Part shown: positions 11,328 through 51,475 of the stretch, piece after piece
Layout of the letters: each line of letters opens with the position of its first letter
How positions within the stretch are numbered: the first letter of the stretch is position 1
Made by a program: the position numbers and the translations under genes
Notes under the pieces: generated by a model
The model's database searches: none
Seen by the model: the letters and a program-made list of their open reading frames with translations, nothing else
What the model was told of the DNA's origin: nothing
Assembly (NCBI RefSeq): GCF_037392515.1
Contig: NC_090291.1
Coordinates: 33,050,501 to 33,114,500 of the forward strand
Length of the DNA stretch: 64,000 nt
Direction of reading: 5' to 3'
Source: Haliotis asinina
Lineage: Eukaryota > Mollusca > Gastropoda > Lepetellida > Haliotidae

Positions 11328-11366
<39 letters not shown>

Positions 11367-11373
11367 ACATCAT

Positions 11374-11414
<41 letters not shown>

Positions 11415-17293: not shown

Positions 17294-17674
17294 GTTAGTG
17301 TTCATAGAGAGTAATTTCTTTGATTTCGGACGATCCTGTTTAAGGGTCTCATGTTGTTGATCTATTGTTACCGTACATACCAACAGGAAAACAGTAGAGA
17401 CGAAAATAACTTTTGGATTGTGTCTATCTGTGTGGAACGCCTAGTTCAAATTCTGTAGCTGTGACGCCACAAACGTTTATGAGGACAAGGAGAACAATGG
17501 TTGTATTTTGAGCTTAGTATTTACTGGTATATAATTCATATGAGTAATAGTTTCAATCATTTACCCACTGCGAGTGTTACAAGACATATCTTTGTGTCAG
17601 ATAAGTGGAACATTAAATTTGATGTTAAAAATTGAATATGATGTTTGCCGTCATTGCTAGAGCAGCTATATATA

Positions 17675-19286: not shown

Positions 19287-19741
19287 TATATTTCTTCTCC
19301 TGACTTGGCACATTGGACTTTCGAAAAAATGCTTTTTTTATATATTTCAGTCAAAGATGTGTATGGTGATAATATATGAATGTGACTCAAAACATGTTGT
19401 ATCCTTGGATCTATATGAGTGAGTGAGTTGATTTTTACGCCGCACTCAGGAATATTCCAGTTATATGACGGCGGTCTGTAAATAATCGAGTCTGGACCAG
19501 ACAATCCAGTGATCAACACCATAAGCATCGATCTGCGCAATTGGGAACCGATGACAGGTGTCAACCAAGTCAGCGAGCCTGACCACCCGATCCCGTTAGT
19601 CGCATCTTACGGCACGCATAGTCGCCTACTATGGCACGTATGGGTTGCTGAATGCCTATTCTACCCCGGGACCTTCACGGGTATGGGTCTATATGAGTTT
19701 CATGATGACAGTATATACTACCCATCAAAAGTTTAGACTGG
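19287..19741 (-). repeat. Inverted duplicate of 32514-32960, carrying a SINE
   Basis: Matches the reverse complement of arm A with only a few differences over about 300 bases, including the same SINE (19416-19685) at the same position and the same MITE end (TACTACCCATCAAAAGTTTA at about 19723-19740). Together with 17181-17674 it makes one inverted copy split by the Tc1 insertion. Confidence 0.88.
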
Positions 19742-25087: not shown

Positions 25088-28000
25088 CTACAATGTCCAC
25101 TCCATCATACTGACAGAGACATCGCCCCAAAATGAAACATGGCCAGGCTTTGCTGCAGGGACTCTCTCGGTGAAGTTATGAATGCTGCCACCATCGGTTA
25201 CTGACTGGAATAAAACGTAAAGAAATTTATGGATGTGAACAAGTGGTTTTCCTTGTTATTTCATACCTGTTGTTGCTTTTACATGTACATACATAGCTGT
25301 CTGTTTCCTAATTGTTTTATTCACCTGACGCAGAAGTAAGACTATACTTAGAAACGCCACAATAAAGAAGTTAATATCCATACAATTTGGGAGCAGGAGA
25401 ATTCCCACCCTGACAATTCCCACCCGGACAATTCCCACCCTGACAATTCCCACCCGGACAATTCCCACCCGGACAATTCCCACCCAGTTATTTTCACTAT
25501 AATCCCCACCATACTGAAATAAAGATATTGACTTTGAACACGTTTGTGCAGTATTCACTTTTTAATAAAATTTTATACTGGATGAAATTTTAAGATCAAA
25601 TGTTTATAAAACCAGTACATTTGGGTTTGGGTGCTACTGTTGAACAATATACTAGTACATGAGAAGAAAATGAGAAGACCTATTTATTAAAATAACAAAG
25701 AGAAATGGTTATTGTGAGCAAGTGCTTATCAGATCACGTGTTTTGACAACCAGTTTACTTGAGCTTGGGTGCTACTGTTTTAAGTATACATATTTTGAGA
25801 TGAATCTTCTTATGTTCTTACGTGAATGTTCTTATGAGGTGAGCATACATACTTGACTAGAAAAACAGTAGAATTCTGCATGTGCCATCCTTTTGTATTT
25901 CAGCATTAATCTAATTTAGTAGTGCTTGTAGTAAATTAGAGAGTTGTACATAAAATGATCTTTTTTCCACGAGAACCTCGCTTCCACCATGGATAACAAA
26001 GCAGAGTATGTTCTGTCGCAGAGAGGTGCCAAGAAGGTTCATTTCAGACGGTATCGGTATGTTAGACACAAGGATCTGAAACCTTAATTCATTTTGAGAA
26101 AACTGACACTAAAGCATGTCAAGAAGAAGATATAGTTCGTGCTTGTTTCATAAGGAATATTAATTAATATTGTTATAACTTGTACATATGTTAAAATGAA
26201 TAAATGTTCAAACTGACATATTTTCTTCATGTTACTTTTATATTGGGGTGGGAATTGTCCTAGATAGGATTTGCCCTAGGTGGGAATTGTCCTGGTGTCA
26301 TTTGACCGCGTGGCAATTGTCCTAGACCGCATAAAACTCTATTCTTCGCTTTTGCTTTTTGTAACATTTGTAAATGCCATTCAAGGACACTGAAATAAAT
26401 CGGCCTTACTTCGTTTTACTGTTAATGTTTTACCCGACATGGAACATAAAGTGAAAAACATGGATACAAGTATATGTTTCCGAATTTGGTTTCAGTATAT
26501 TTTCTTTCTAATCACAAAGACAATCCTTTTAGATATAGTCCACAGAGGTGCCAGAGTGATAAAGACAAATTTTCACTTACTGGAATATTAAATGAAACTG
26601 CGGGTGTATTCAGTATAGTTCTCACTTTACCTTCACTGTTATAAATGCTTTAATACTCCAATTTGCAATTTACACTCCATGTATAAGTCCCAAATTCTCT
26701 ATATCTTTATGCTTAACTGTTGTTTTAACCATCTACAGTAGAAGCTGTCTAAACCGGCACTCATTGGGACTGAAGAAGTAATCCGGTTTAGACAAAGTGC
26801 TGGATTGAATAGCTGATGGTAAATCTACAATGTATGGACTGAGATTTTATGCAGGTGTAGAAAACATGCCGGATTGGACAGATGCCAGTTTTCGCAGCTT
26901 CCACTGTATTTATCATCAGTATTTCTCGGTTATATTCCATACATACTCTGTATACTCCATCTTGGAGGGTTATTTGAATCTCCATTGGTTTTCCGACAGC
27001 CATTGATACATTGAAACGCTCCGCTGCTCCCCAGCTACCTTCTATCATTGTGTTGACAACGACCACGTTACTTTCACCAAAAGAGCCTAAGCGAAATCCT
27101 AAGTGGAATAAATAGTCCTCTTCTTGCTGTATCCCGACGCCCCATCTGGAAATGAATGATAAAAGAAGGAATGAATCAGTTCATATTGGTACACGAGTTC
27201 ATCAAACATTATTTATATGCAAAGACATTACTACGTGCCAATATATCATCTTCTTCCGTAGGTTAACCTGTCATAACGTCTTGACTGTATTTTTCCATTT
27301 TTCTATTTTTTAAATATTTCAGTGTCAAAGCAATTTAGGGTTTTTACAGAAATAGATTTTTTAGAATGTTATCTTTTGTAATAGACCAAGGTGCTTTTAT
27401 AATTGTTAGAATGAAAGAATGAATTAATAACTGAGACTGTGAGTGACTTTATCCCCAAAAGGGTTAAAGTATTGTTAACTTATTGTCCCCCTACGTAAAA
27501 GCACGTCTATCAAAGTATATTTAATCTGACCACAATTGTCATCATTGTATACATGTTTATGTACATTAATGACACAATCTCTCCCAATTGCCAACAACTT
27601 GAGGAATGCTGTAAAACCAGCTGGGGTCCAATCAGGTTGCAAAAGTACTCCTCATGGTACTCAGTAAGGTGATTTACCTTCAGTTGTGGGCAATCAATAG
27701 TCTGTTGTATTATATGCCATGTATTATCTTCTATAGTAAACCGTTTCAGATTTTCAAACTATATTTAAATTCATATCTACAATTTTCTAGTTGTGGTGAT
27801 TTGCCTTCATTTGGGATATGACTTAAAATCGTATCTCACTCAAATATAGAAAAATTTCGTTCACAAGAAATTGTTCTGCAATATCCGTAAATATGCTTTT
27901 CAAAACCTCGCCATAATGACAATGGATGAATTCATCCATGGGTGAATTCCATTTTACATGTATCACGGGTCACTTGCTTGATAACGACATTCGAATCTAT

Positions 28001-31000
28001 GTCTAAACGCCGCCTTCACTAAATGTAAGAAGTTGTACATCGATATAGAATCTAATGCTGTTATCAAGCAGGCATCACTTGCTTGATAACAGCATCAAAA
28101 TGTATGTCAAAACGTCACCTTCACAAAATAAAAGAAGCTGTAAGTCCATAAACTTTTCACAATTCTTCATCAACCCAACATCTAAAATCACTATCGAGAA
28201 AGCAATAGCTGAATGTGTAAAGAACAACTTCATGAATTTATTTCAAGATGTACATTCTTTACCTTGTAGCTTCTGTCGGTATCCCATGGATTATGAACCG
28301 GAAACTGCTGGATGCACCACACGGAAATGAATATTTCCCCTGGATCTGCAACAGACATACCAGTACATTTCATCATTCGCTGCTGCACGTGTACAGTGAT
28401 TTTGTTGTGTCTGATTGCTTGTGCGGGGTCTTATCTCATTCAACATAGGTTCGATATTGTGTCAACATTACCAGGGCTGGAAAAATAGAAATCAGACTGA
28501 TATTTAAATTTCTGTGTTGTGTTACTCCGCTGTTTAGCTAGCCATGTCATAAAAGACAAGGAAAACCAAAGCACGTAGCTTGAATCACAACCAGTTATCT
28601 ATGTTGCTGGGCACCAGTCTAACTTGAAATTCCCAAAAGGAAGTCGCATGGTTGGTTTCGTGTGGAGTATAAGGTCTGTGGTCGTTTATACATGCAACAC
28701 AAGAATGCTCAAGTCCTGAAAATCCTAAAACACTCAGACGCAAATATTATCTTACCGGGTCATGCCATCTGCTCTGTACACAAAGACCGACTAAACTCTC
28801 CCACGTTCCAGATGACTGACAGGTGCTGGTGACATTGTTGTAGCAGGCTCGGTAGTCAGGGTCACAGTAGTAGGTCGCCACAGCTCCCTGGTAGTGACCA
28901 TCATACGTGATGTTGGCGCCAATCACTTCTGGGGGATGACCACACCCTTGGAACTCTTCACAAAATTATACATACACCCACAATTTGAATCCATGTCAAT
29001 ATGTCGTGTTTGGGAATTCAATTTCTCACCATACATACTTGACTAGAGATCAAAAGTAGACCAAAAGAGACCAAGTCCTAAGGAACTGATTTTTTGTCAG
29101 TGGCATTCCGAAAGAATGTGTATGTGGGCGTAGAAGGAGCTCATCCGTTTAAGTAGATGAACATCTGTCGAGTCTTTACACTGCATCTGTTTGTTGCCTT
29201 AGCTATCGCTGTGGGTTTATTGTACAAAATGTAGTTGAGGCATTAGAAGAACATGGGTTACCTGGAGCACACCTTGCATGACCAAGTCGAGTTACTTCAC
29301 AGCGGGTGGTGTTGTGACATACCATTTGAGCGCATCGTCCAGGCAGATACTAGAAGGAAAAGAGTCCATACTAAATTTAAAGGAAATTGTTTATTGAAAA
29401 ACCAAACTAGTGTTGAGGACAGATTGACAGATCGCTAACCTTTAGACATCAGAAGATGTTGTTCGTCTAAACTTTAATTCCACCTTACACAGCAATTGTC
29501 AACTACACATGGAAAAATAATTTGGCACCGTGTAGCCAGTGAATGACACTATGGGCAGAAGTCTATCCGAGACATGATGAAACACACTGACCAACTTCAG
29601 TGACCAGTCGATCCTGTTGGCAACATGAGTTGGTTGGGACCGAGTCCTCTCCATGCCAGACTTCAGCCCAATGTTCCGCGATAACGTCTGAAGACACTTT
29701 GACGTCCGCCAATACAGGAATTGGTAAATTTTGACTCATCTGTGAAAACAGTCCCCTATCATAATCGAAGTCCAGCAATTGTCTGAGCACTGGCCACTGC
29801 TGTCTTAAACCTCTGCCGAAGATCGGCCACCCGTATCTATCTGTCATGTCTTTGCGTTTTTACATTATGATGTTTTGGTGGCAGTGGACATGTGGACAGC
29901 TATTCGTTTCCACATGGGGCAATTTGCGGTTCAATAGCTGTCTACTATTTGTAACGATGAAACGTCAAACAATTAAACTTCGCAAATCAATAGAAGCACA
30001 TTCGTGTTCTTCATGTGTAACTGTGTATATGTAGTTGAAATGTCTTCCTACGAGTAGTTTGTTTGTTTGTTTTTTCTGGCGTTGTAATTGTAATTTTAAT
30101 TGTATACCTGGTGAGGTTTTGATGACGGCTAAACACATTATTGCCCCATACTTGACAAATATCTTTAACAAGATGTTGCAGAATGCCTATTTCCAAAAAG
30201 TTGGGGTAACAGTATTATTTGTCCATTATTTAAATCTGGAAGCAAACAGGACACATACAATTATAGAGGTATTTCCCTCTTTGATACAATATGTAACATA
30301 TTTACTGCTATTTTGAACAAAAGACTACAGAAATGGTGTGATTTAAAACAAATAATAAGTGAATATAAGGCCGGTTTCAGAGCCAACTATTCAACTACTG
30401 AAAACATCTTTGGATTACAGTGAATTATCCAAAATATGCATGTAAGAAAAATGGACGGTTTTATTGCCTTTTTATAGATTTTTCTAAGGCCTTCGATAAA
30501 ATGAGACACGATGTACTTTTAAGATCTCTTCATGATGGTGTAACCGGCAAATACTACAACATTATTGTCTTCATGTACTCTCCACTTTCATCCTGTGTAA
30601 GAACAAACTGTGGACTGTCATCATGCTTCACCTGTAATGTGGGTGCCCGTCAGGGGTTCATACTAAGTCCACAATTGTTTATTTTTTTATAAATGAACTG
30701 TACAAGAAATGTTAAATGATGGTGGTAAAGGTGTTTTTATTACACAAACCATGGACAACCTGTTTGCACTTATGTTTGTTGGTGTTATCTCAGCACTCGT
30801 TGACACATGCCTTCTTTTACAAGAGAAGATTTACGTTTTAGAAACTTTTTGTAATGAAACTGGAATGCAAGTTATTCTTAAGAAGACTATAGTAACAGTT
30901 TTTAGAAATTGCGGTCCTCTACGATCATACGAGAAATGATTTTACAAGGGCCAACAGATTGAATCTGCCTCTTTTTATAGATACCTGGGTATTGTTTTCA

Positions 31001-33637
31001 CACCCAAGCTTGTGTGGAGCAAAGCACAACTATGTTTATCATCCCAGGCTAACAAAGCAATATTATCATTATTCAATTGTCAGAGAAAAATTGGTAATAT
31101 AGACGGCTGTGATTTATTTAGGATTTTTTACTCAGTGATTGCACCTATACTCTGTTATGGAGCAGAAATTTCGAGCACTGAATATTATAAAGTTATTGAG
31201 GCTGTACATCTCACGTTTTGTAAACAGTACATAAGAGTAAACAAATCTACGTTTAATGGGATAGTGTTGGGCGAGTGCGGCAGACTCCCTCTCCAATATG
31301 TTTATCTCCTGTGTGTTATTGGATACTGGTGTCGTCTCATACACCTGCCTGAAAATAGGTTGCCTCGTCAATGTTACGTCATGTTGAGATCTTTAGATGA
31401 AACAGGCCGCATCATATGGGTTTCTAAGATGAAACAAATATTACTCATGTATGGCTTTGGTTATGCCGGGTTTTATCAAGGACTCGGAAATGTTGGTATG
31501 TTCATTTCTCTTTTAAACAAAGATTAAAGGATAATCTAAAATAGTCATGGTACTCATCAATACAAGAGTCTCCGAAATGTTTTTATTATAAGCACTATAA
31601 GTCTTTGTTGAATGTTGAAAACTATTTGTGTTCTGACATTCCAGTGTATCTAAGGATGACCTAATCAAGATTTAGATGTAGTAACTTTAAGATAGTAATA
31701 GAAACTGGTAGATATGGAAATATTGAACCAAGAGATAGACTCTGTATGTACTGTAAATCAAACGGGTTGGACTATGTTGAAAATGAATGGCATGTCATAT
31801 TTATATATAGTTTTAATAAAGATTTAAAAGCCAAATACAGTACTAAATATAAACAAGAACCCTATACTGTATACACTATGGTAAATCTGCTCCAAAATGA
31901 ACATTATGATGTTATGTATAACATCGGTTTGTTTTTGTACCACGTCAACAATATTATAAAATGTAGGAACAAATGAGCGCTATATATACATCCTAAAACA
32001 TGCGCACGTGAAAGGTGTAAACTATTATCTGCATGTATTATGGACCAGTGGCCTCCTTACTGAATAAACTGTCTGGCTGGCTGTATGTCTGTCTGTCTAA
32101 TTGTAATTGACAACACCGCGATATATTTGGGTGCGACGAAATGTTATGCTACAATAATATATTATCCATCAAAAGTTCAGACCCACTTAAAACACTCAGT
32201 ATATGTCATGTCCAAACGCATATAACCAAGGTGAATTTCGCGAGGATCACAAGGATCATGCACCAAATTGCCCAAATGTATGTGCAAATATCGTGCATGT
32301 GAAGTCCTGCCTTTAAATTTTGATAAGAATTTGCCAGTTTCGTCATTTATTGAACGCATGACAATAATTTTTCAATGTTACGAATTTGTTTTACAATACA
32401 TTAGTTCATGTATAAATATTACCTTTAAACAGTATGAATTCTAATGCAAAATCTAGTTTAGAGCAGTTGATCGTAGTGAGTGGCTACATTTACACTAGTG
32501 TGTCTAAACTTTTGATGGGTAGTATATACTGTCATCATGAAACTCATATAGACCCATACCCGTGAAGGTCCCGGGGTAGAATAGGCATTCAGCAACCCAT
32601 ACGTGCCATAGTAGGCGACTATGCGTGCCGTAAGATGCGACTAATGGGATCGGGTGGTCAGGCTCGTTGACTTGGTTGACACCTGTCATCGGTTCCCAAT
32701 TGCGCAGATCGATGCTTATGGTGTTGATCACTGGATTGTCTGGTCCAGACTCGATTATTTACAGACCGCCGTCATATAACTGGAATATTTCTGAGTGCGG
32801 CGTAAAAATCAACTCACTCACTCATATAGATCCAAGGATACAACATGTTTTGAGTCACATTCATATATTATCACCATACACATCTTTGACTGAAATATAT
32901 AAAAAAAGCATTTTTTCGAAAGTCCAATGTGCCAAGTCAGGAGAAGAAATATATAGCTGCTCTAGCAATGACGGCAAACATCATATTCAATTTTTAACAT
33001 CAAATTTAATGTTCCACTTATCTGACACAAAGATATGTCTTGTAACACTCGCAGTGGGTAAATGATTGAAATTATTACTCATATGAATTATATACCAGTA
33101 AATACTAAGCTCAAAATACAACCATTGTTCTCCTTGTCCTCATAAACGTTTGTGGCGCCACAGCTACAGAATTTGAACAAGGCGTTCCACACAGATAGAC
33201 ACAATCCAAAAGTTATTTTCGCCTCTACTGTTTTCCTGTTGGTATGTACGGTAACAACAGATCAACAACATGAGACCCTTAAACAGGATCGTCCGAAATC
33301 AAAGAAATTACTCTCTATGAACACTAACCTTTGGCCAATGTTGAATATCACTGAAGAGGAATCCCGTTCTGTGAACAACGTTAGCAGTATCACTACCGTT
33401 ACTGTTGAGGAGGCAGGTGCGCGTTTTATTCTCAAATCCAAAGGACAGACATACTGAGGACATGAGGCATTCTGATGCACAGGTGTAGAGAGACTGACTC
33501 CAGAACTTTCTGAACACCTGGTGTTCCATGTACTTATCATACCGAACTACAGAATCCATGCCCAAACAGTTGTCACCACTGACTAACTTCGTGATTCCAA
33601 ATATTAGAAAAACAACTTCCCTCCAGTAAGGCCACAT
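25088..33637 (-). CDS. Secreted PAN-CCP-galectin protein, gene A (five exons, complete)
   Basis: Exons, 5' to 3': 33329-33637, 28756-28953, 28263-28345, 26947-27145, 25088-25204; all GT/AG, phases 0/0/2/0, total 301 residues. Signal peptide 1-21 (VVFLIFGITKLVSG). PAN/Apple-like module about 24-90 (CASECLMSSVCLSFGF, TRTCLL). Sushi/CCP 104-165 (CGHPP, YYCDPDY, TCQSSGTWES, GLC) plus one extra Cys. Galectin domain about 172-300 over three exons: FPCGASSSFRFIIHGIP, LFHLGFRL, VVVVNTMIEGSWGAAER, GKPMEIQITLQDG, GHVSFWGDVSVSMME. Galactoside-contact positions: His211, Arg215, Asn228, Trp235 and Arg240 kept; the usual Asn is Gly213 and the usual Glu is Ala238. Several N-glycosylation sites fit secretion. 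Likely an extracellular lectin or recognition protein (inference). Intron 1 holds a LINE, a Tc1 relic and a MITE; intron 4 holds a Mutator-like element. Confidence 0.88.
25321..25380 (+). other. Hammerhead-like repeat motif, copy 1
   Basis: CCTGACGCAGAAGTA, then TACTTAGAAACGCC and AATAAAGAAGTTAATATCC. The layout CTGANG - stem - GAAAC resembles the core of hammerhead ribozymes that Penelope-like elements carry. Here the core is diverged. The same block sits at the paralogous place in arm B (38637). Confidence 0.45.
25389..26325. mobile_element. Mutator-like (Rehavkus/Phantom-type) element remnant
   Basis: The left end is a 15-base tandem array (GACAATTCCCACCCG, six copies); the right end carries the reverse unit (GGGTGGGAATTGTCC) three times. 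Between them a 33-codon frame at 25989-26087 begins MDNKAEYVLSQRGAKKVHF, which resembles the start of a FLYWCH zinc finger. Tandem-repeat termini and a FLYWCH gene are typical of some animal Mutator-like elements. Arm B lacks the insert, so it arrived after the duplication. The core transposase is missing. Confidence 0.6.
29530..29880 (-). mobile_element. Tc1-type transposase relic in intron 1 of gene A
   Basis: The reverse strand shows RQRFKTAVASAQTIAGL-like and TVFTDESKFTN-like blocks followed by GGRQSVFRRYRG, the first catalytic-Asp region of a Tc1 transposase. The frames are interrupted. The same relic lies at 42600-42910 in arm B, so it predates the duplication. Confidence 0.65.
30060..32100 (+). 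mobile_element. LINE (non-LTR retrotransposon), decayed, arm A only
   Basis: The reverse transcriptase shows SEYKAGFRANYSTTENIFGL, DFSKAFDKMRHDVLLRSLH, GARQGFILSPQLF and, where the catalytic FADD should be, FVGV, so it is catalytically dead. Downstream come the thumb-like block NETGMQV and a C-terminal domain (SVIAPILCYGAEI). It ends with TGAATAAACTGTCTGGCTGG and a TCTG-rich tail. Several stops and frameshifts are visible. Arm B is continuous at this place, so the LINE inserted after the duplication. The clade is not assigned. Confidence 0.85.
32158..32530. mobile_element. MITE with Tc1-like inverted ends
   Basis: The left end TATCCATCAAAAGTTCAGAC and reverse-complemented right end TACCCATCAAAAGTTTAGAC are inverted repeats. 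About 370 bases, with no coding capacity. The right half is also present in arm B (43180-43562). Confidence 0.65.
32556..32823 (+). mobile_element. SINE family 1 in intron 1 of gene A
   Basis: Full unit with flanking direct repeats CTCATATAG. It is absent from arm B and present at the same site in the inverted copy at 19416-19685, which dates the inverted duplication to after this insertion. Confidence 0.88.
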
Positions 33638-34904
33638 TTTCAGTAGCTGGACCTTCAGCTGTTAAATTGATACTTATTTCTGTTGAGTCTTTGTAACCCT
33701 GCCAACTCCTGTTTCATGACAGGTATTCAGGTTTAATGGATGGAAACATCACTGTATCAATAGTAATCATATGTGTAAAATATTTTCCTCGACAACAATG
33801 GATTCTATGTGTCTCAGAGCTCTCATAAAATCAATTCATGTGACAAATAATGTATTTATTATTTAACAAGACAGTTAATTGGAACAAACACAGTAGTCTG
33901 TGAATAATCAATGGGCAGCTGCGTGACTTCATCCATTGGGTGTAGTGCATGGGACAAATGTCTTGGAAGCAAAATATAGTCATGGATGGAATACCGCCAA
34001 TATCACTTTAGAATTTAACTCATTCGTTCATTCCTCAGCACTAGGGATCTTAATATTTACAGTGTTAACACAATGATGTCAGCCATACGGAGGGCAATTA
34101 TGATATACCTTAGAGTAATCTATACAAGTAATGAAACAAACTACGGTAATGATTTGAAAACAGTCGTCAAGTGGAAAGTAAAAAATTGTCTTTTGCCGTG
34201 AAAAACAGTATTAACGGAATCAGTTACATACAAAAAAAAACTATTCAACACAATGGATTTACGTCGCAGAAGATATTGATGAATTTCGGGTTTATTTTAG
34301 CGGCGAGTATATATTGTGTTGTCAATTAACACTTTACTATTTTAAATACTCTTAAAATGCATTTCTAAAAGTTGGGACAATGTTTAATCCCATTTTTATT
34401 TATTCCCAATTCTTTGCGATCAATAAAGAACCGGTTCAATAAATTAGTATAACATCACACAGTCGGCATCCTGTGCCACAAGATGATATTGACTTGATTA
34501 TTCGAACAATGTTGTATTTACCGCTAGCATGGCTGGCGTTTTCCAACACAGCGTTTTCCATGTTTTTTTTCACCCAGTCAGTGTTTTCATAAATACAAAT
34601 TACGTACAACGACTTTACATGGATATTTTTCTTCAGTCAACATTTGTAAAAACTGATTATGTTCCCGAAACTACAGACAGTTAATGAGCAGAGTTTGGCA
34701 TCACGTGATCGACATCATACACTGAACCACTTAAGAAATGTTTCACTGATAGCGCTTTCTTGAAGCACACACTTTAATTCACTCTCAGTAACAATGAAAA
34801 AGGAGGTTTGAGTTCAAACGTGACAATTATGGTTAACGCATTTTCGGGAATCACATTTAGTAGTTCACACAAACAAAATCACCAAAAATAGAATCATCAA
34901 GATA

Positions 34905-35640
34905 CCCTTAAGTCAACATTGTGTGTGGCCTCCATGGGCATCGATGAAAGCGTTAAATCCTCAGTAGATGGAATGAATTAGCCGATTGATGACGGTCACT
35001 GGCTCTTGAGGCCATACTCTGCGAAGTGCATTATGTAGTCCAGCCGCAGTTGTCGGCCTTGTTTGAAGGTCATTCACTCTTCTTTGAATCTCGTCCCAGT
35101 GGTGTTCTGTTGGACTTAAATCATCAGTGAGTGCAGGCTATTGTAGGGTTTGGATGGTATGATGTCATAGGAAGGCAAATATTGCTCTGTTAGTGTGGGT
35201 ACGAGCGCTGTCTTGATATATGATTTGATATCTGTAACGTCCAAAACGTGTTTCAGCGTGGGGTCTTATGACTTGGCCAGTACAGCGAGCAACTGTCACG
35301 TCATTTCCTCAGCCTGGACCAAGATTCTGGAACACCAGGTGTTAACTAACTGGTTCAGACCGATTGCACACCAAACCATGATGCTTGGACCACACCACGA
35401 ATCTCTTACAACAATACAATCTTTGGAAAACAGATCCCATGCCTTCACCATACTCTCACTTTGCCATCGACTCTCAAAACACAACATCGGCTTTTGTACG
35501 ATAAAAACACAGTTCTCCATTGTCGATAACGTCCATTTCGATGCTGAGTTGCCCTTGAAAGTAAGTTTTGGAAGTGATGAGAGGACAGGGCTACAATATG
35601 GTCCGTGACAGCAGTACAACATACAAATTGTCCGATGTGG
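34905..35640 (-). mobile_element. Tc1-type transposase relic between the arms
   Basis: The reverse strand codes WDLFSKDCIVVRDSWCGPSI and MVWCAIGLNQLVNT, the middle of a Tc1 transposase, followed after stops by an HLWDEIQRR-like region and a PMEATH-like C-terminus. It is broken and old. It lies close to the junction between arm A and arm B. Confidence 0.75.
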
Positions 35641-36337
35641 AGAAACTGGTCAGAAATAGTTTAAACAAGATAGAAAATGGAAATGTTTCAGAGCAGAAGT
35701 ATTGAGTTTATCCCTGTGTTTCGCAATGCATTTTAGCTGTTCTCTTTATTGTGTATACCCCCTTGTTACAAAGGTCATTACAATATCAACATGCCAATAT
35801 CTGAAATTATAGTGACGAGCTGGATTGGACAAACTTTCATGTCATTGCAGACAATTTGTTGCTTTCCAGTGTATATTTATTCATCTGTTCGATCTTGAAG
35901 CAAACGATAAAGTCATGTGCTTGGTAGATTGTTTGAAACATGTCAATGTTGACTATAATGCCTTGACACTGCCTTCTATCCTTGTTACCATCAATACTCT
36001 GTGCTAAATACTCAATACTCTATTGGTATCTGAGTGTAGATATTGTTAAGTGGCATCTGATAACTGTCATGATCGGATAGTTATTAATATACGTCGATGG
36101 TGTAGTCGGAATTACACAATCGAATCGAACAGAGCTTTCCTATAGATATGGAAAGGGGTTTGTTGGTTTATAGGACGGGTAACATTGTAGAATGAAACCG
36201 TGAAAGCACTGTTTGGTCGTGAATCCGTTTATTACTGTAGCTCAAATTATATGGGTAATTATGAAATAATCATAAAATGAATGTTACGTGCACAGAATAA
36301 CACAATCTGATATTTAGCAGAAATTTCTTACAAGACA

Positions 36338-37430
36338 AATATTATGGATAACAACTTCATGGCTTCTTTTTCACAACGTTTCTGGGCTTGTTATTGCCCC
36401 TTCGTCAGGTGGATAAAAAAATAGTGAACAGTACAGTGTATTTGCATTAATGAACAGGAAGCCAGATATGTATGTAAGTATATACAAGCAAAAGTGAGAA
36501 AGGAGTTGTGATTATGTACAAACAGTGATGTGAGATCAAAGAGGACTGCAGTGAAAGGATTTGTCTTTACATTAAGTACAAGCGTATCTTTACATAGCAG
36601 AGTGGTTTGAGAGTCTATGATTTCTTGGTGATGCACCACGCACTAGAGGGGTAAACCCCTTGATACCTGTGGATCTCGGACACTAATTGTCTTACGCTGA
36701 TTGACTCAAGTTTTCTTTTCCGTAAGTTACTGATGTTGGAAGCTGGGATTTGAGTGTGTTGCCCAGTTGGTAGAGTGATTTGGATTTTTGGTCTGCTCTA
36801 CAAGTTGTTAGGGATATCCGTTGAGAGTGATGAAAGTTGTTTTGAGGTGGTCGATTTCATTTTGGAGTTGGGCTGGGTCGTAGAAAACCTTGGCACGTCT
36901 GGTTAGGGTTGACACAATGGCTTGTTTTATCTTTGGTTGGATAGATATAGTGGCTAGAACGGAGATGTTTGTAACGCTGACTCTTCAAAGTTGGTCATGG
37001 AGATTTCGGTAATCAGAGGGGACAATGGTGAACCCATGGGGAGCCCATAAATTTGTTGATAGATGGTGTTCTGCCATGTTATATAAGAAGTGTGGAAACA
37101 ACTGGATACCAATTCGAATATACTGTGTATGCTAGGTTTTGTGTCAAGAGTGTCAATACAACTGTCTAGATCTAATTTTCCACGGAGAATATCAAGAGCT
37201 TCATATAATGGAATATTTACAAATAAGTCAACAACATCATAGCTGACCATTCAGCCTGATGATCTAGATTCTAACAGTTAGTTCACAAATGATGCCGTGT
37301 CGCTGATGAAGGATTTACCTTCTTTACCAAAGGGGCAAGCAGTTTAGAAAGGAATTGAGCTGTATTGTAGTAAACTGGAGTTGGTGGCAGAGTTGATGTG
37401 GAAAAAATTCATACAGATACGGAAACGTTG
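36338..37430 (-). mobile_element. Penelope-like retroelement, broken
   Basis: The reverse strand codes part of a Penelope-type reverse transcriptase: SYDVVDLFVNIPLYEALDIL and QQIYGLPMGSPLSPLITEI, preceded by an LSKLLAPLVK-like block. The 3' end holds a hammerhead-like motif (CTGACGAAGGGGC, then GCCCAGAAACG). It lies in arm B only. The element is incomplete and carries several breaks. Confidence 0.8.
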
Positions 37431-38396
37431 ACGGATTTGGTGCTTTTCAGTTCGGGGTAGTTTGTAGAGATAACTACAAATATGTCTGTGGTACAGACAG
37501 CAACACAACAAATGTCAGAAATATGTGCACAGATAACACAGTGTGATATGAAAGCAGTAACAAACGTAACTACCATGTTCATTATTTGAAGCTTGGAAAC
37601 TTTGCCTCGATTTCTTTGAGAAAGGCGTGCATGTGAAATGGTTCATTCCTTCAGCTGCCTTTCAGTCATTCGTGCAATCTCTCTGGAAAGGGACCTATCA
37701 TTTCCATTGTATGACTTCAAATAGGGACATGCATTTAAAAAACTGTTAACTTCTCCTAAGTCGGAACGTTACATTCCAGCCACCCGACACGATTACCTTC
37801 CAAGTTGGCCGTAAAGGAGAAAGCAAATATGTTGCAGACAAATTCTAATTTAAGAAAGCAGACCAAAGACGACTTCTTAAAACATTTATTAGTAAGAAAC
37901 AAGCTCTTTGCAAGACTTTTAAAAAAAATGCAATGTCAAGGGCAAAAGCAGAAACAATTGTGACTTGCATGCACAATTACCCATTCATCTCTTTACGTGT
38001 TGATTCCAATAACTTAAAGTCCGCGAAGCTACTACACAATGAAATGCAATATAAATGACTGTTATAATTGTACTTATAACTGTAAATGTATATAACCGTA
38101 CTTTGAAAATAAATAAGGCTACAAATCCCTCCAAGGGAATAACAGTGTCAGTTCCAGAAAGAGTGACAGTATGCGATCCATTTCGTGCAGTCCTCGGAAA
38201 ATGACACGTTGTGTGCAATGCCCATTTTGTTATTCTTGTGAATCTTTAGGAAACAATTATTTCTCATATCGAGTCATAAAGTTTATGTTCAAGACAGTGA
38301 ACAAATTCAACCATGGTGTCAGTAATAGTCACTGTCTTGTATGAGACAAAAGACATCATTGTTATGGAAACCATCCGTTGCTCTCGTGGTTTTCGG

Positions 38397-41300
38397 TTAA
38401 GACGAGAATTCCATCATACTAACAAAGACGTCGCCCCAAATGGAAACGTGCCCAGGCTTTGCTCCAGGGACTCTCTCGGTGAAGTTGTGAATGCTAGCAC
38501 CATCGATTACTAACTGGAATAAGCCATAAAAGCAAGAATTTTATGCATGTGAACTCTTGGTTTTCCTTGTTATTTCAAAACTGTTGTTGTTTTCAAATGT
38601 ACAAACATAGCTGTCTGTTTCATAGTGTTTTTTATTCACCTGATGCAGGAGTATGAGTATACTTCGAAACGTCACAATAAAGAAGTTGACATCAACAACA
38701 TTATATATTTACCTTTATGTGTATCGTTTTTAAATGCCATTCAAAGACACTGAAATAAGTGAGTGAGTGAGTTTGGTTTTACGCCGCTTTTAGCAATATT
38801 CCAGCAATATCACGACGGGGGACACCAGAAAATGGGCCTTACACGTTGTACCCATGTGGAAAATCGAACCCGTTTCTTCGGCGTGACGAGCGAACACTTT
38901 AACCACTAGGCTACCCCACCGCCCCACACTGAAATAAACCAGCCTTTACTTTACTGTTACTGTTTTACCCGACATCGCACACAAAGTGAATAACATGGAT
39001 ACACGTATATATTTTTAATTGGTTTTCAGTATGTTTTCTTGCTTATTACTTAGATAATCATTTGGATATACTCCATGGAGGTGCCACAGTGACAAGGACA
39101 CATTGTCACTCACTGACATCAAATGAAACTGTGGTGTATTCAATATTGTTCTCAGTTTACCTTCACTGTTATAGATACTGTTATACACCAGTTTGCGATT
39201 TACATTCCATGTATAAATCACCAGTTCTCTATAGCCTTAAGGTTACCTTTAACTGCTAAGTTAACGATGTACATATCATCGGTGTTTCTCGTTTACATTG
39301 TATACCTACCATATATACTCCATCTTGGAGGGTTATTTGAATCTCCATTGGTTTTCCAACAGCCATTGATACATTGAAACGCTCAGCTGCTCCCCAATCA
39401 TCATCTATCATTGTGTTAATAACGACCACGTTACTTTCATCATTAAAACCTAAGCGAAAGGAGGATTGGAGTAATGTGTCAGCTTGTTTCTTTATCCTGA
39501 CGCGCCATCTGCAAACGAATGATTACAGAAGAAATGAATCAGTTCACATTGGTACACTAGTTCAACAACATAATTCATATGTAAAGATCTTACAACTAGA
39601 AAATACATCATCGCCCTCCGTATGTTACCCTGCCAAATCCTTCTTGACTGTATTGTATTTCCATTTTGCAATTTTTGCATTTATTTAAATATTTCCCTGT
39701 CAAATATAATTTTTAATAATGTTAATTGTCACTAATAATTGTGGTTTTGCTGAAATTGGAATTGTCAGAATATTATCTTTTATAAAGGATCAAAGGTATT
39801 TTTTATAATTGGTAGAATGAAAGAATGAATGAGATTGTCAGTGACTTTACCCTCAAAGGGGGTTTAAATATTGTAAACTTATTGTCCCCCTGAAAGGGTA
39901 CGTCAGACTACGTCTTTCCGAGTATAGTTTTATTTTGACCGCAGTTTTCATCATAGTATACATGTTCGTTTGAATTAATAAAAAATTATGCCCCAGTTAT
40001 CAACAACTGGAGGAATCAAACTAAAAGTGCTTTATAGTTCAACTTCTTTATTATACAAGGTCACAACGTTTCGAGACAGATTCTAGTCTCTTCTTCAGGT
40101 GAAGTGAGGGTAAAACTAATATATATACACATAACAGTAGAATGATAACAATGGGTAACAAGATATACAGGCTTCGATTGATTGATGTACAGGCTTCAAC
40201 TTATGTACAGGCTTAAACTGATTGGTGTGCAGGCTTGTGTTGATTAGGTTAACGAGTTACAGGTAAAGATGTTTGGATAAGGATTAGTCACTGAGGATAA
40301 GGTGGTTCCATGCATTGGGTAAGTAAACACCTCCGTCTCTGTTGATTGTATCTAGCAAATTATATTACCAAATATAGTTCTCCTTTACCAATCGTTTAAT
40401 ATTCAATGTTTGCTTTTCTTGTTCATCCACCTACAATGGCTTAACATTACAGTTTTGGTCAGATTTTGGACGAAGGTTGAAATAAATAGCTAAATGTGAA
40501 GAACTATGACGATTGTTTTATTCTTTGAAGGTGACGTTTCGACATAAAATCTAATATCGAATCTACTCGAATCTATGTCATCGTTGCCTTCACAGAATAA
40601 AAGAAGCTGTATATCCATAATGTTTTCCATAATTCTTCATCAACTCAGCTTCTATAATACCTATCCAAGAAGCAATATCCAATTTTGAATTTAATTCCAA
40701 ATGTACATTCTTTACTTTTTAGCTTCTGTCGGTATCCCATGGATTATGAGCCGGAAACTGCTGGATGGACCACACGGAAATGAATATTTGCCCTGAATCT
40801 GCAACAGACATGCCAACATATTTCATCATTCGCTATTTTACATGTATAGATAAAGTATGACTCCTTGTGTGGGATCTTATTTCATTTAAATATATTCAAC
40901 ATAAACTCATGGGCAAAAAGTGAACACTTTGTATTCTGTATTTTGGGGAAAGTTGTCCAGTAAGTAAAATCCATTGAGGCCGAAACAGTTCGCACAGACA
41001 CTTACCAAAACGCAACATGTTGGCTGTGCAGAAGCACGTGAATTTGCCAAAAATGGCAAAACGTGCATCGAGAAATGATACATCTCAGCTGACAGAAAAC
41101 CCTCGAAGACGTACCATGTTACGACATCCACATGCAGCAGGTATCAGAGCTCGCCATTCCCAGGTATATCGTACTGACCCAGGAACATCGTCGTCATAGG
41201 TTACAGCGGGTAAAGACTGCAAGTCGCTGCCTGGTACGAAATTGGCAGCGAGGGTTTTTTTAACAATCAAAAGTTCATTCACCATCTTCCATAATGATTG

Positions 41301-44300
41301 TAAGATTTGCTGTATCGATCATTAATAAGGGTGTTCACTTTCTTTTGCCCACTAGTTTATTTTGTCAAAAATGATCGGAATTACTAGGGCTGGAAAAATA
41401 GAAATCAGACTGATATCTAAATTTCTGTGTTGTGTTACGCCGCTATTTAGCTAGCCATGTCAGTACAAGACAAGGAAAGCCAAGACACGTAGCTTGACTG
41501 ACAACCAGTTATGTGTGTTGCTGGGTACCAATAGTACCCAAATTCTCAACAAAAAGTGGTATGATTGGGTGCTTGTGGTATGTAGGTTCCGTGTCCTGAA
41601 GATCCTAAAATACTCAGACGCAAATATTATCTTACCGGATCATGCCATCTGCTCTGTCCACAAAGACCGACTAAACTCTCCCACAATCCAGATGACTGAC
41701 AGGTGCTGGTGACATTGTTGTAGCAGGCTCTGAAGTCAGGGTCACAAGTGTACCTGGAGTAGGTCGCCACAGCTCCCTGGTAGTGACCATCATATTTGAT
41801 GTCGGCGTCAGTAACTTGCGGGGGATGACCACACCCTTGGAACTCTTCACAAAAAATACACAAAGCCCAACAATTTGAATCCATGTTATTATGTCAACCG
41901 TCGTGCTTAGGAATCCAATCTTTCATCATACATACTTGACTAGAAATCAAAAGTAGAAACCAAGACAAAATCCAAAAGGATTGATTTTGTCTACAACATT
42001 CCGAAGTTCTCACTACACCAAGAATGTGCATATGGGCGCAGAAAGGCACAAAGGGATATCCACGCTCATCCTTTTCAGTCGCTGAAACATCTTTACTATT
42101 CTGCTCATGTTGGCTGTCTTCACACTGCTGTTTGTTGCCTTCGCTATCGCTGTCGTTTCATTGTACAAAATGTAACTTACAAAATATCACCTTATTCTTT
42201 CTAATTGCGATCTACCATCCAGTCCAAATCATGTACAATGTCGCCAACTGGAACTATGCAAACCTATTCTCCCATATCTTTGTGGTGAAGGTAGTTGAGG
42301 CATTAGAAGAACATTGGTTACCTGGAGCACACCTTGCAAGACCAAGTCGAGTTACTTCACAGCGGGTGGTGTTGTGACATACCATTTGAGCGCATCGTCC
42401 AGACAGAGACTAGAAGGAAAAGAGTCCATACTAAATTTAATGCAAATTGTTTATTGAAAAACCAAACTAATGTTGAGGACGTATTGGCAGATCTCTAAGC
42501 TCAACCTATAGACATAGGGCAGATGTCTCATCTTTAATTCCACCTTTCACAGCAATTGTCAACTACACATGGAAACAATATTTTGGCACCGTGTAGCCAG
42601 GGAATGGCAGTGTGGGCGGATGTCTAATCGCCACATGATGAAATCTATTGACCAAATTCAGTGACCACGCTGTCCCGTTGGCAACATGGACTGCATGGGA
42701 CCGAGTCCTCTCCATGACAGACGTCAGGACAGTGTTCCCAAATGACGTCTGTAGACGCCTGGACGACCGACAATACAGGAAATGGTAAATTTTGACTCAT
42801 CTGTAAAGACAGTTCACCACCACAGTCTAAGTCCTGAAATTGTCTAAGCACTGGCCACTGCTGTCTTAAACCTCTGTCCGTATCTACCTGTCCTGTCTTG
42901 GCGTGTTAACTTTATGGTGTTTTGGTGGCAGCGAGACAATTTGAGTTTCATTAGCTGTTTAATATTTGTAACTGTCAAACAATTAAGCTTCCCAAATCCA
43001 TTGCGGTCTTTCACATTCGTGTTCTTCATTTTTAATCGTGCACATGTGTAGTTAAAATGTACAGTTTGACCTTCTATGAGTAGTTTCTCTTTTTTCTGGC
43101 TGGTATACATTGTATGACAAATGTAATGGATGATAGCGGGTGCGACATATTAGGGTGCCATCTTCGACGAATATTATGCTACAAGTTAGATGTTATGTCT
43201 ATACACATGGTTACAACCGAGACGAGTTTCTCCACTAACTTGGAGGAACCAACTGCAAACCTTAGGTAGATAAATTGCACGAGGATCATGCACCACATTG
43301 CCCAAATGTGTGTGCAAAATCGTGCATGTGAACAGCTGAGTTTTGGTATAAATTTTTTATAAGAATATGCCATTTTCGTCATTATTGAACGCATGACAAT
43401 AATGTTTCAATGTTACGAATTTGCCTTACAAAACATTAGTTCATGTATAAACGTTACCTTGAAACAGTATGAATTATTTTGCAAAATCTAGTTTAGAGCA
43501 GTTAAATGAAATAAGTGCTACATTTCACTAGTGTGTCTAAACCTTTGCTGGGTAGTATATACTGTCATCATGAATCTCACATGGACCTCAAATATAGAAC
43601 GTTGTTTAAAATGTTACAAGAGTGTATTTTCTGTAAACTGTATTATGGGTGATAATTATTATGGGTCACATTTCGTATCATAAATGCACAGTGCTTTTCA
43701 TACTTTGGCAGCGGGCTTTAAGGTAGCGCTTTAGAGTTACCTCCCTTTGAGTTTGTGTTTTGATTAGTAGAGTGTACTTCCGGGAGACTACCAGAGAATT
43801 CTACGTTGTGGCGATGGTCGTATGTGCTCGAATATTCAAGAATCGGTGACTATGTATATAAAGGCTGGTTATTGTGTAAACTGCCTGCCTTTGTCACCGT
43901 TAGACCTACATAACCGATGCCTGACCGCTCACAGTTTCTGTGCATCATAGTTTCCCTATATGAAAGAGTTCAGATTTCCATTAGGTCAGTTTTTCCACAC
44001 AAGTCAAATTTTGACCACCTGACAATTTTATCAAATTACCAACTTTTCATACCTTTTATAAAGTGGGAAAACTTCATCTCTTAATATACATATTGAAGAA
44101 ATTTAGAAGCTACCGGGGTAATATGAGGTTTGCAGCAGATTAACAACATGACACTCTTCAACAGGCTTGCCTGAAATTATAGGAAATACCCGCTGTGAAC
44201 GCTAACCGTTGGCCAGTAGAAAATACTAGAGTATAAGAAAAGAAAGTAAATGTCATATAATCATAAAACGGTATCATTATAGAAAACAGTGCAATATAGA

Positions 44301-44784
44301 AACGGGCTATAGACCACATTCGGAAGCGCTCCGTGCAGATAGACACAATCCAAACGTTGTTTTCACCTCTACTGTGGTTTGCCTATGTGTAGGTGCGAGA
44401 ACAGTAGATCAACAACATAAGACTCTTAAACAGGATCGTCTGAAATTGAAGAATATACTCTCTGTGAACACCAACCTTTGGCCAATGTTGAATATCACTG
44501 AAGAGGAATCCCGTTCTGAAGAGGATGTTAGCAGTGTCACCACTGTTATCGTTGAGGAGGCAGGTGCGCGTTTTATGCTCAAATCCAAAGGACAGACATG
44601 CTGAGGACATCAGACATTCTGATGCACAGTTGTAGAGAGACTGACTCCAGAACTTTCTGAACACCTGGTGTTCCATGTACTTGTCACGCTGAAATACAGA
44701 ATCCATATCCAAACAGTTGTCACCACTGACTAACTTCGTGATTCCAAAAATTAGTAAAGCAACTTCTCTCCAGTAAGGCCACAT
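38397..44784 (-). CDS. Secreted PAN-CCP-galectin protein, gene B (five exons, complete)
   Basis: Exons, 5' to 3': 44476-44784, 41636-41842, 40716-40798, 39310-39508, 38397-38513; all GT/AG with the same phases as gene A; total 304 residues. The start is the ATG at 44784 (MWPYWREVALLIFG), giving a signal peptide. PAN/Apple-like module about 24-90 (CASECLMSSACLSFGF); CCP 104-168 (CGHPP, YTCDPDF, TCQSSGLWES, GLC), three residues longer than in A; galectin domain about 175-303. The galectin sugar-contact positions differ from A: the usual His is Gln214, the usual Asn is Ser216 and the usual Glu is Ala241, while Arg218, Asn231, Trp238 and Arg243 remain. Sugar binding is therefore probably weak or changed (inference). 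The first donor is GTTGGT, weaker than GTTAGT in gene A. No break is seen. Confidence 0.88.
38637..38700 (+). other. Hammerhead-like repeat motif, copy 2
   Basis: CACCTGATGCAGGAGTATGA, then GTATACTTCGAAACGTC and AATAAAGAAGTTGACATC. It is the counterpart of 25321 in arm A. Confidence 0.5.
38759..38925 (-). mobile_element. tRNA-derived SINE (family 2) with target-site duplication
   Basis: Complete reversed unit, flanked by ACACTGAAATAA at 38747-38758 and 38926-38937. Arm A has the uninterrupted empty site near 26382-26397. It lies in intron 4 of gene B. Confidence 0.9.
40050..40105 (-). other. Hammerhead-like repeat motif, copy 3
   Basis: On the reverse strand: CACCTGAAGAAGAGAC, a short loop, GTCTCGAAACGTTGTGACC, then AATAAAGAAGTTG. 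The stem GAGAC/GTCTC is perfect, making this the best preserved copy. Confidence 0.55.
40901..41360. mobile_element. Non-autonomous DNA transposon with inverted ends
   Basis: The left end ATAAACTCATGGGCAAAAAG and the reverse-complemented right end ATAAACTAGTGGGCAAAAGA are followed on both sides by AAGTGAACAC-like sequence. About 460 bases, with no intact gene. Located in intron 2 of gene B. Confidence 0.7.
42600..43110 (-). mobile_element. Tc1-type transposase relic in intron 1 of gene B
   Basis: The reverse strand holds RFKTAVASA and VFTDESKFTISCIVGRPGVY-like blocks in broken frames. It is the counterpart of 29530-29880 in arm A. Confidence 0.65.
43590..43965 (+). repeat. Unclassified dispersed repeat, copy 1
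   Basis: Shares blocks with the reverse complement of 61030-61445, such as GGTAGCGCTTTAGAGTTACC and GGTCACATTTCGTA. It contains a TATATAAAG box at about 43855. No coding sequence, so the class is unknown. Confidence 0.6.
44130..44235 (-). pseudogene. PAN-exon donor-region fragment
   Basis: The reverse strand resembles the end of the PAN exon and the start of its intron (ACTGGCCAACGGTTAGCGTT), just 240 bases downstream of the real exon of gene B. It looks like a small decayed tandem copy. Confidence 0.5.
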
Positions 44785-48035: not shown

Positions 48036-49351
48036 CACAACTTGATCTATCATTGATGTACAGTAATAACAAGAATACAATCAATTGAAAAGAAAACATA
48101 GCAATTACAAATCCTCAATTACAAATGGGTCCCAAGACGGTGTCGGAGACTTTGTGCCACTGTCATTGGATCCAGAACAGTATCCTCTAGATTACCGCAT
48201 AGCAGTTCTATTTTCACTACTGAAGCTAACACCATACTAACGGCTCTTAAGTTTATTCAGCAATATATAATCTCTTTTCTTACGTAATTACTCACAAAGT
48301 AATTATGTTCTTTTCTATAAGATAGATGGATATCATTGCCTCTGACATTTTACGCATAAATGTTATAACTGTCATGTTTGATGAATATTATAACAAACAA
48401 AATAACGGGTGCAGTAGTTTATTATATTATTCAAATGATCTCATTTGTTTTTTGTTGTTGAAGCATTGGAAGAACTTTAGCTACCTTGAACACACCTTCC
48501 AAGACCAAGTCGAGTTATTTCACAGCGGGTGTTGTTTTGACACGCCTTTTGAGCGCATCGCCCAGAGAGAGACTGGGAAGAAAAGAGTGCATTCAAAATA
48601 ATGCAGTTGTTCATAAATCAAACTAGCGTTGTGGTTTCCCATGTATATAAATCCAGGGACAGATTGACAGATCTCTAAGTTCAACATAGACATCATAAGC
48701 TGGACATCAGAGGATGTTGTTTGTCAAAGCATTCGTCCGCCTTTAGCAGTTGTGTTCAACTACACATGGAAGCATGAGAAAGATTTCATCAGACATCCAG
48801 TGAGTGAAATCATGAGTAAACGTTTACGTAACTGGAACATGATGAAATCTATTGGCCAATTCCTTGAGCCTGACCAGTCGATCCACTTAGTCTTTGAACA
48901 AACATATGGCCCCTAGAATAGTGATCTACCTGCAGCTGTTGACAAACAAGTCTGATTTTACATTGTCTTGTTATGTCTAGTACAAATGTTTTAGATTTAA
49001 TTTCTGGTTTTAAGTGGATATCTGTGGTACACTAGTAGTTTTACTGTTCATCGTCAACAGGGTTTCTATTTTTTTTAATTTTAATGATCTGTAATACACT
49101 TAGTTATTGTCCTCATCACGATATGACTGCAATATTGCCGATGTGACGATAAATACCAACTCACCCACTCGCTTTTTGAACAAGCATGGGATGCTGACGA
49201 TCAATTCATACGAGCATTCAAAACGTATCAGCATATTATGGCATTCTTAACAGAAAACACTATACTCATTCGAATAATATTGTTTTTACACAGCGTCATG
49301 GAATCTGTATTTGATATTAAGTTAATTTGAGATTCCTTGATGATAGTCTTT
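48036..49351. other. Partial third duplication remnant, no intact gene
   Basis: 48470-48600 matches intron 1 of both galectin genes (AAGACCAAGTCGAGTTATTT; counterparts near 29280 and 42335). A SINE-tail piece lies at 49105-49165. No coding exon is seen here. Confidence 0.55.
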
Positions 49352-49363
49352 ACAAACATGGTA

Positions 49364-49638
49364 GACCCGTGAAGGTCCCGGGGTAGAATAGGCCTTCAGC
49401 AACCCATGCTTGCCATAAAAGGTGACTATGCTTGTCGTAAGAGGCGACTAACGGGATCGGGTGATCAGACTAGCTGACTTGGTTGACACATGTCATCGGT
49501 TCCCCATTGCGCAGATCGATGCTCATGTTGTTGATCACTGGATTGTCTAGTCCAGACTCGATTATTCACAGACCGTCGCCATATAGCTGGAATATTTCTA
49601 AGTGCGACGTAAAACTAAACTCACTCACTCACTCACTC
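49364..49638 (+). mobile_element. Full-length SINE family 1 with target-site duplication
   Basis: Complete unit flanked by ACAAACATGGTA at 49352-49363 and 49639-49650. Confidence 0.9.
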
Positions 49639-49854: not shown

Positions 49855-49985
49855 TTTACACAATAAAGTTGTCACCAGTGACTAACTTTATGATTCCAAA
49901 AATTATGAAAACATATTTGCTATGGTTTGACGACATGTGCATCACCTTGATCTTCAACTGTCAAACTTGTGTCTAACACTCCTTA
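49855..49985 (-). pseudogene. Signal-peptide fragment of a PAN-family first exon
   Basis: The reverse strand reads YVFIIFGIIKLVTGDN, matching LLIFGITKLVSGDN of the galectin genes, with matching upstream flank. It diverges right after the cleavage site, so the PAN module is missing. Confidence 0.65.
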
Positions 49986-51179: not shown

Positions 51180-51475
51180 AGCCACGGACCATGATAATGT
51201 CCGCCAAATGACGTAACCTGATAACAAATTTGTAACCGTGTACTTGTCACGCTGAACTACAGAATCCATGTCAAAACAGTTCCCACTGTGAACTGACTGT
51301 ATGATTACAAACATGTACAAAATGGTTGTAATCCATGTTGGTTTTTCTATTTATGAATGTGACCTGCAGAAGCTGTGTCAATGGCCACTGACCAGTAAAG
51401 ATGTGAACGAAGGCCACTTCAAAGGATGTAACCTGGTAACAAATTTGTATATAGTCAAAAGCTATGATGCGAGTT
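51180..51475 (-). pseudogene. Second PAN-family first-exon remnant with local duplication
   Basis: The reverse strand reads VIIQSVHSGNCFDMDSVVQRDKYT in pieces, matching SGDNCLDMDSVFQRDKYM of gene B. The frame then leaves the family. A sequence of about 60 bases (AACCTGGTAACAAATTTGTA) occurs twice, at about 51210 and 51430. Confidence 0.6.

Follow-up and report, generated by a model that had tools for sequence, protein, structure and literature searches.

What is a galectin domain doing at the end of a protein that begins with an apparent signal peptide and continues with disulfide-rich extracellular modules? This question is raised by a 64,000-nucleotide stretch of the Haliotis asinina genome (contig NC_090291.1, here C12; C12:33050501-33114500, hereafter the window), in which two genes, A (25088-33637) and B (38397-44784), lie in tandem on the minus strand and encode proteins of this kind. 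Galectins of deuterostomes and bivalves typically lack a classical secretion signal (PMC10343441). An initial annotation of this DNA had proposed that A and B encode secreted galectin chimeras, possibly for innate recognition. With a corrected gene model the observation behind that proposal is real, and its interpretation is partly supported: a secreted chimera is well supported by sequence alone, and a role in innate recognition is plausible. The reading that we favor, with slightly more confidence than doubt, is that A and B are classically secreted recognition proteins with a disulfide-rich stalk and one galectin-fold head, probably joined as covalent dimers and serving a soluble immune role.

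Structure of the two genes and their proteins

Translating each exon and comparing the two copies gave the same structure for both genes: six exons with open frames, GT/AG at every border and identical phases (0, 1, 0, 2, 0). The tandem arrangement, clean splice sites and shared phases described initially therefore hold, but the count of five exons per gene was wrong, an 88-bp exon between the PAN and Sushi exons having been missed, and the six-exon proteins are 328 (A) and 331 (B) residues long rather than 301 and 304. By arithmetic on the exon lengths, omitting exon 2 and lengthening exon 1 by four bases yields 301 and 304 codons including the stop, from which we infer that the earlier junction used an exon 1 extended by four bases. 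The donor of this extended exon agrees with the consensus at 3/9 positions in A and 4/9 in B, whereas the donor four bases upstream agrees at 8/9 and 7/9.

In gene A, exon 1 (33329-33637) encodes a probable signal peptide and the PAN module, exon 2 (29262-29349; 88 bp, phase 0 to 1) a four-cysteine EGF-like module, exon 3 (28756-28946) the Sushi/CCP domain, exon 4 (28263-28345) the first strands of the galectin domain, exon 5 (26947-27145) the galectin W exon, and exon 6 (25088-25204) the end of the galectin domain and the stop codon, with AATAAA 656 bases downstream. The corresponding exons of gene B are at 44476-44784 (residues 1-103, ending in phase 0), 42322-42409 (88 bp, phase 0 to 1), 41636-41835, 40716-40798, 39310-39508 (strands S3 to F4) and 38397-38513 (AATAAA 507 bases downstream); an alternative in-frame AG nine bases upstream of exon 3 of B would give three more residues. 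The newly recognized exon 2 is identical at 85/88 positions between A and B (its flanks are 78% and 58% identical), has a good acceptor (CCTTCTAG) and a donor matching 7/9 consensus positions, encodes C-x4-C-x5-C-x9-C in both genes, and has phases (0 in, 1 out) compatible with exon 1 and the Sushi exon. An equivalent is present in all ten family members that we modelled, being 88 bp long in nine and 85 bp in J. A and B share 91-97% identity in exons 1-4, more than the 58-87% of the flanks, and the ratio of nonsynonymous to synonymous substitution rates (dN/dS) over the whole gene is 0.51 (95% 0.36-0.75). Because of this ratio, and because the same exon order recurs in the genome, the two-gene pattern is more than would be expected by chance.

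The order of modules in both proteins is a hydrophobic N-terminus, PAN, EGF-like, Sushi and galectin. The Pfam profile Gal-bind_lectin (PF00337) matched both proteins (A, E = 3.3e-17, 62.6 bits; B, 3.3e-15, 56.2 bits; cut-off 22.1) over positions 4-131 and 4-130 of 132, so that the whole carbohydrate-recognition domain (CRD) is covered; this excludes the possibility, raised by the initial annotation itself, that the last three exons carry no galectin profile. PAN_1 was likewise above its cut-off of 21.4 in both (A, 2.5e-6, 27.6 bits; B, 9.1e-7, 29.1 bits), whereas Sushi, with a cut-off of 20.7, was above it in A (3.7e-6, 27.7 bits) and below it in B (0.0024, 18.7 bits), where three extra residues may be the cause of the low score. 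Exon 2 encodes four cysteines rather than the six of an EGF domain and had no Pfam EGF match in A or B; we call it EGF-like by its cysteine spacing only. A search of PDB sequences with the PAN and EGF-like part found no match up to E = 10. Thus the PAN-Sushi-galectin order, as first described, is borne out by the Pfam order, although it omitted the EGF-like module, and the hydrophobic N-termini (Kyte-Doolittle values over 9 residues of 2.86 in A and 2.70 in B) argue for a signal peptide. Similarly, the term disulfide-stabilised fits the protein better than its lectin domain: 14 of 15 cysteines are in the PAN (five), EGF-like (four) and Sushi (five) modules, and a single one is in the galectin domain (C205 in A, C208 in B). 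Sequons for N-glycosylation number seven in A (shuffle p 0.001) and four in B (p 0.10).

By sequence, the PDB relatives of the proteins are galectins, the top scores going to two-CRD chains labelled simply 'galectin', and galectin-7 aligns along nearly the whole galectin domain of A (E 2.1e-9). The W exon ends within the F4 strand, DGVYM/LVIDG of B (slash, exon end) being aligned to DDGFKAVVGD of galectin-7, which makes the domain one of the F4 type (PMC5751359). The fold and the W-exon type are thus those of galectin-7 and other single-CRD galectins of the F4 type, from which A and B differ in their altered pocket, probable signal peptide and added modules.

The gene family and its pattern of change

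Both genes are open, as first described, but they are members of a multigene family rather than a two-gene curiosity. A search of the 1.143-Gb, 159-contig assembly with protein B gave 121 exon matches, the best 121 of 353 candidates and therefore a lower bound. This search, a Pfam galectin search, a W-exon search and the local models together gave 38 W exons, 12 matches on C8 without a nearby PAN or Sushi match having been dropped beforehand. At 23 of these 38 listed W exons, PAN, Sushi and W exons stand in that order on one strand within 30 kb; two others have just a Sushi exon, and the remaining 13 have a PAN exon at most. This count of ordered loci also disregards EGF, exon 4 and exon 6 matches, the PAN fragment at 33067674 and those PAN matches on further contigs that had low identity, and the Sushi exons of A, B and J were kept as unbroken because their reported stops fall outside the modelled exon. 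Two of the 23 loci have a reported stop in the PAN or Sushi match, and two others (E and I) are damaged. Clusters lie on C12 at 33.0, 34.2-34.3, 38.6 and 40.7-40.8 Mb, with further loci at 8.4 and 31.2 Mb of the same contig, at 17.3 and 44.4 Mb of C1 and at 42.7 Mb of C2. Galectin W exons at C1:44.58-44.79 Mb, C7:56.2 Mb, C14:34.1 Mb and C2:46.2 Mb have neither a PAN nor a Sushi exon among the listed matches in the 30 kb upstream of them.

Full-length open frames of six exons and 328-333 residues were obtained for eight members (A, B, D, F, G, H, J and K), where K includes an exon 1 joined over about 8.3 kb of mostly unread sequence. The family layout of PAN, EGF-like, Sushi and galectin modules in six exons with phases 0, 1, 0, 2, 0 was found directly in A and B and, with imposed phases, in the six paralogues, for which the informative observations are the equal exon lengths and the open joined frames; exon 4 is 83 bp and exon 5 is 199 bp in 10/10 modelled members. 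PAN_1 and Gal-bind_lectin were above the Pfam cut-off in all eight, and Sushi in six, falling just below it in B and K; for D, F, H, J and K the scan dispensed with an ambiguous tripeptide (EFQ) that opens exon 3 in their joined frames. Two modelled members, E, which lacks part of its Sushi exon, and I, for which exon 6 was not found, were excluded from the eight-gene alignment and included in the pocket comparison and the 23 loci.

Among the eight full-length members, the stalk is constant and the head is variable. All 15 cysteine columns are invariant, and mean pairwise identity is 80% for PAN, 73% for the EGF-like module and 80% for Sushi, against 56% for the galectin domain and 49% for its sugar face (the part in the W exon, placed by alignment). 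The corresponding values of omega (dN/dS) are 0.51, 0.63, 0.42, 0.61 and 0.71. Between A and B, amino acid changes concentrate in a stretch of 39 codons that opens the W exon, with about 25 of 71 changes and none of 5000 shuffles as dense, and the next 28 codons have no amino acid change. Within the 39 codons, dN is 0.336 and dS is 0.294 (Fisher p 1.0); the comparison with flank divergence gave p 0.10, and that of nonsynonymous and synonymous changes with the rest of the gene gave p 0.07. This stretch has thus changed faster than the rest of the gene, with no excess over the neutral expectation shown. A comparison of site models M2a and M1a over the whole gene gave likelihood ratio test (LRT) values of 16.3 and 17.1, and 12.3 without A and B, where 15 null simulations reached at most 2.9; exons 1-3 gave 7.6 (p 0.02). 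Fourteen sites had a posterior above 0.5, ten of them in the galectin half, under a simple model that ignores the higher overall rate of that half. The site-model code was our own rather than PAML, the inner nodes of the tree are weak (49, 28), and gene conversion lies outside the model.

The sugar pocket and the likely role of the proteins

Galectins contact beta-galactosides through seven canonical positions (H N R N W E R). We compared these positions in 24 W exons with galectin-7 and with L002, a galectin from this genome whose pocket is complete, leaving aside L066 (the same as L065), L068 (nearly the same as L067) and L071 (reported stop); 21 of the 24 fall within the 23 ordered loci, and L065, L067 and L011 fall outside. 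The equivalents of Arg53, Trp69 and Asn62 are kept in 23, 22 and 20 of the 24, Glu72 in 14, those of D and G among them, and Arg74 in eight. At the His49 position, seven have His and 11 have Tyr, and at the Asn51 position none has Asn and 19 have Asp or Glu. The pocket reads H-G-R-N-W-A-R in A and Q-S-R-N-W-A-R in B, compared with H-N-R-N-W-E-R in galectin-7 and one C8 galectin, so that A has 5/7 canonical residues and B has 4/7, both being without the acidic residue at the Asn51 position and without the Glu. No W exon of the 24 has all seven residues; L069 is the best with 6/7 and the only one above A, whose pocket is more complete than most. Three C8 galectins compared in the same way have seven, six and four, the last of them with Asp at the Asn51 position. 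Glu184 of galectin-3 has been described as crucial for recognizing galactose (PMC12355970), and on our own reading this residue would be the equivalent of the Glu position in the family. Ordinary beta-galactoside binding by A and B appears doubtful because pocket residues have been replaced, while the recurrence of an acidic residue at the Asn51 position points to a changed ligand and not to decay.

These observations are consistent with a model in which the genes, if transcribed as we infer, encode proteins that the signal peptide would route to classical secretion. PAN, the short EGF-like module and one Sushi domain would form a disulfide-rich stalk, followed by a single galectin-fold domain of the S3-F4 type encoded by three exons, and the protein would be N-glycosylated. 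Since the number of conserved cysteines is odd, at least one should be free for an interchain disulfide, so that chains would be linked covalently into dimers or oligomers, each carrying at least two lectin heads. With Arg, Asn and Trp retained in most members and the galactose-reading positions altered, the heads probably bind other glycans or glycoproteins, differing by paralogue, and the likeliest role would be to recognize, in soluble form, microbes or foreign surfaces present in mucus or haemolymph. A broader proposal, which we put forward tentatively and at somewhat less than even odds, is that this is a large secreted lectin family with a constant stalk, probably covalently dimeric, and a variable galectin head, in which most members exchanged the pocket Asn for Asp or Glu and thereby gained a new class of ligand, forming a lineage-specific recognition repertoire parallel to the FREP and GREP families of other snails.

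Several points weigh against these readings. A is short of two and B of three of the seven pocket residues, and Glu is missing in 10/24 W exons (A, B and eight others), so some members may bind no sugar; moreover, Asp at the Asn51 position is also found in a stand-alone galectin of this genome (L008). The odd cysteine could pair otherwise. Sequons are scarce in G and K, with one each, and the evidence for a signal peptide consists of hydrophobicity and a plausible -3/-1 site. Between A and B, exons 5 and 6 are 83% and 82% identical, no better than the 5' flanks (81% and 84%). Omega on the sugar face, at 0.71, does not exceed 1, and a higher overall rate in the galectin half (scale 1.41) accounts for part of its faster change. 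The whole-gene M2a test is significant, but exons 4-6 alone give an LRT of 2.1 (p 0.35), and we do not regard positive selection on the sugar face as established. Finally, because the models of paralogues D to K were built with GT/AG borders and the A and B phases as requirements, agreement in those two respects is no independent confirmation.

The same pocket losses bear on an alternative in which the galectin domain of A and B is a scaffold that has lost sugar binding and makes protein contacts instead, an arrangement also proposed for some vertebrate galectin-related proteins. Both pockets depart from H-N-R-N-W-E-R and lack the acidic residue and the Glu, but the Arg-Asn-Trp core is retained, A still has 5/7 canonical residues, and the acidic residue at the Asn position in 19/24 W exons looks more like retooling than decay; we regard a pure scaffold as rather unlikely, although it deserves serious weight. 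A structural role in shell matrix or mucus is less likely still. Tables for Haliotis laevigata list secreted shell-matrix proteins (idb_982 and the CLC_3878 group) that carry a signal peptide, as A and B probably do, and resemble them in combining Sushi and galectin in one protein (PMC6003135). These proteins differ in bearing several chitin-binding and other lectin domains, whereas Pfam finds no chitin-binding domain in A or B, and the main text of that paper nowhere uses the word PAN.

Gamete or egg-coat recognition would also account for many copies and a fast-changing head, and a multigene family with a variable domain suits it, but the sequence holds no pointer to the gonad and positive selection on the head is not established, so we consider such a role improbable. 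Most remote of all is the idea that PAN-EGF-Sushi and galectin belong to separate transcripts, or that exon 3 often runs on into its intron to give a secreted form without galectin. In both genes, read-through past the exon 3 donor does add WHDPVR before a stop codon is reached, yet the frames are open across exons 3-4 in all eight full models and the order is kept at 23 loci.

If they are soluble recognition proteins as we favor, a close parallel would be the GREPs of Biomphalaria, galectin-related members of the VIgL family. GREPs are gastropod plasma proteins in which N-terminal extracellular domains are joined to a galectin domain, and they bound parasite proteins in pull-downs (PMC5433772). 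GREPs have IgSF domains in place of PAN, EGF-like and Sushi modules, and they have been described as confined to Heterobranchia (PMC8878817). Pfam found no Ig domain, and hence no GREP/VIgL architecture, in A, B or the six paralogues, although the IgSF domains of mollusc VIgL proteins are hard to detect automatically according to an Aplysia review (PMC9334734). Lophotrochozoan galectins generally have two or four CRDs (PMC8878817), whereas A and B have one galectin domain. Scallop galectins share the W exon that runs from S3 to F4, the four-CRD ones being exceptional, but bivalve galectins have no classical signal peptide (PMC10343441). The PAN-EGF-Sushi-galectin order is described neither for GREPs nor for abalone shell-matrix proteins, and no description of it was found in searches of open PMC papers, which leaves uncontradicted the earlier remark that no gastropod family with this order has been described.

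Multigene galectins that are apparently routed to the endoplasmic reticulum and joined to disulfide-rich modules would be a clear exception to the pattern described for deuterostome and bivalve galectins, which leave the cell without a signal peptide (PMC10343441). A constant stalk with a variable lectin head is also the build of other snail recognition families, and the family could be an independent repertoire. The widespread change of Asn to Asp or Glu makes a sharp prediction of altered ligand binding in a well-studied lectin fold.

Family relatives and other features of the window

The stalk has a relative in an intronless frame on C16 (C16:34287601-34289450, minus strand; L072/L073), which shares a hydrophobic N-terminus, a PAN module ending in WPK, an EGF-like C-x4-C-x5-C-x9-C and Sushi, with PAN_1 and Sushi of L072 above the Pfam cut-off. 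It differs in being a single open frame of 573 residues with further Sushi-like repeats and no galectin seen by eye. Its C-terminus looks like a GON domain, judged by eye in the unscanned L073, the last part of which was unread. Because this frame has the same start (probable signal peptide, PAN, EGF-like, Sushi) and another end, the stalk may be an older block that was later joined to galectin.

Several partial relatives lie in the window itself. Exon 1 (PAN) of a more distant family member is at 2817-3083 (minus strand), with its Sushi and W exons just beyond the window. A remnant, C, comprises exon 2-like sequence (48485-48572), an exon 1 signal-peptide fragment (49868-49912) and a second exon 1 fragment (51240-51341), all on the minus strand; no accompanying Sushi or galectin exon was found in the window. 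At 17181-17430 (plus strand), part of exon 1 with its 3' flank is repeated in inverted orientation, within a longer inverted copy of 33441-32502 (17181-17673 and 19281-19738, plus strand; 98-99% identical) that is interrupted by about 1.6 kb of sequence containing an open Tc1-like transposase (17758-18963; HTH_Tnp_Tc3_2, DDE_3).

A reverse-transcriptase-like fragment lies between genes A and B (36957-37250, minus strand; RVT_1 below cut-off), and sequence at about 30.2-31.5 kb (plus strand) in intron 1 of A looks reverse-transcriptase-like by eye, its scanned part (30940-31524) matching nothing. An open reading frame (ORF) of 300 residues at 10598-11497 (minus strand) has a QRICH1 domain, DUF3504 and long Ala and Asp runs. 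A repeat of ~270 bp, 89-96% identical and in both orientations, occurs at 713-984, 7922-8195, 19416-19682, 32558-32824 and 49364-49638. An exon of a papain-family cysteine protease is at 12004-12387 (plus strand; Peptidase_C1, 4e-14), and ORFs at 5398-5748 and 6799-7149, neither matched by Pfam, appear by eye to belong to the same cathepsin-like gene.

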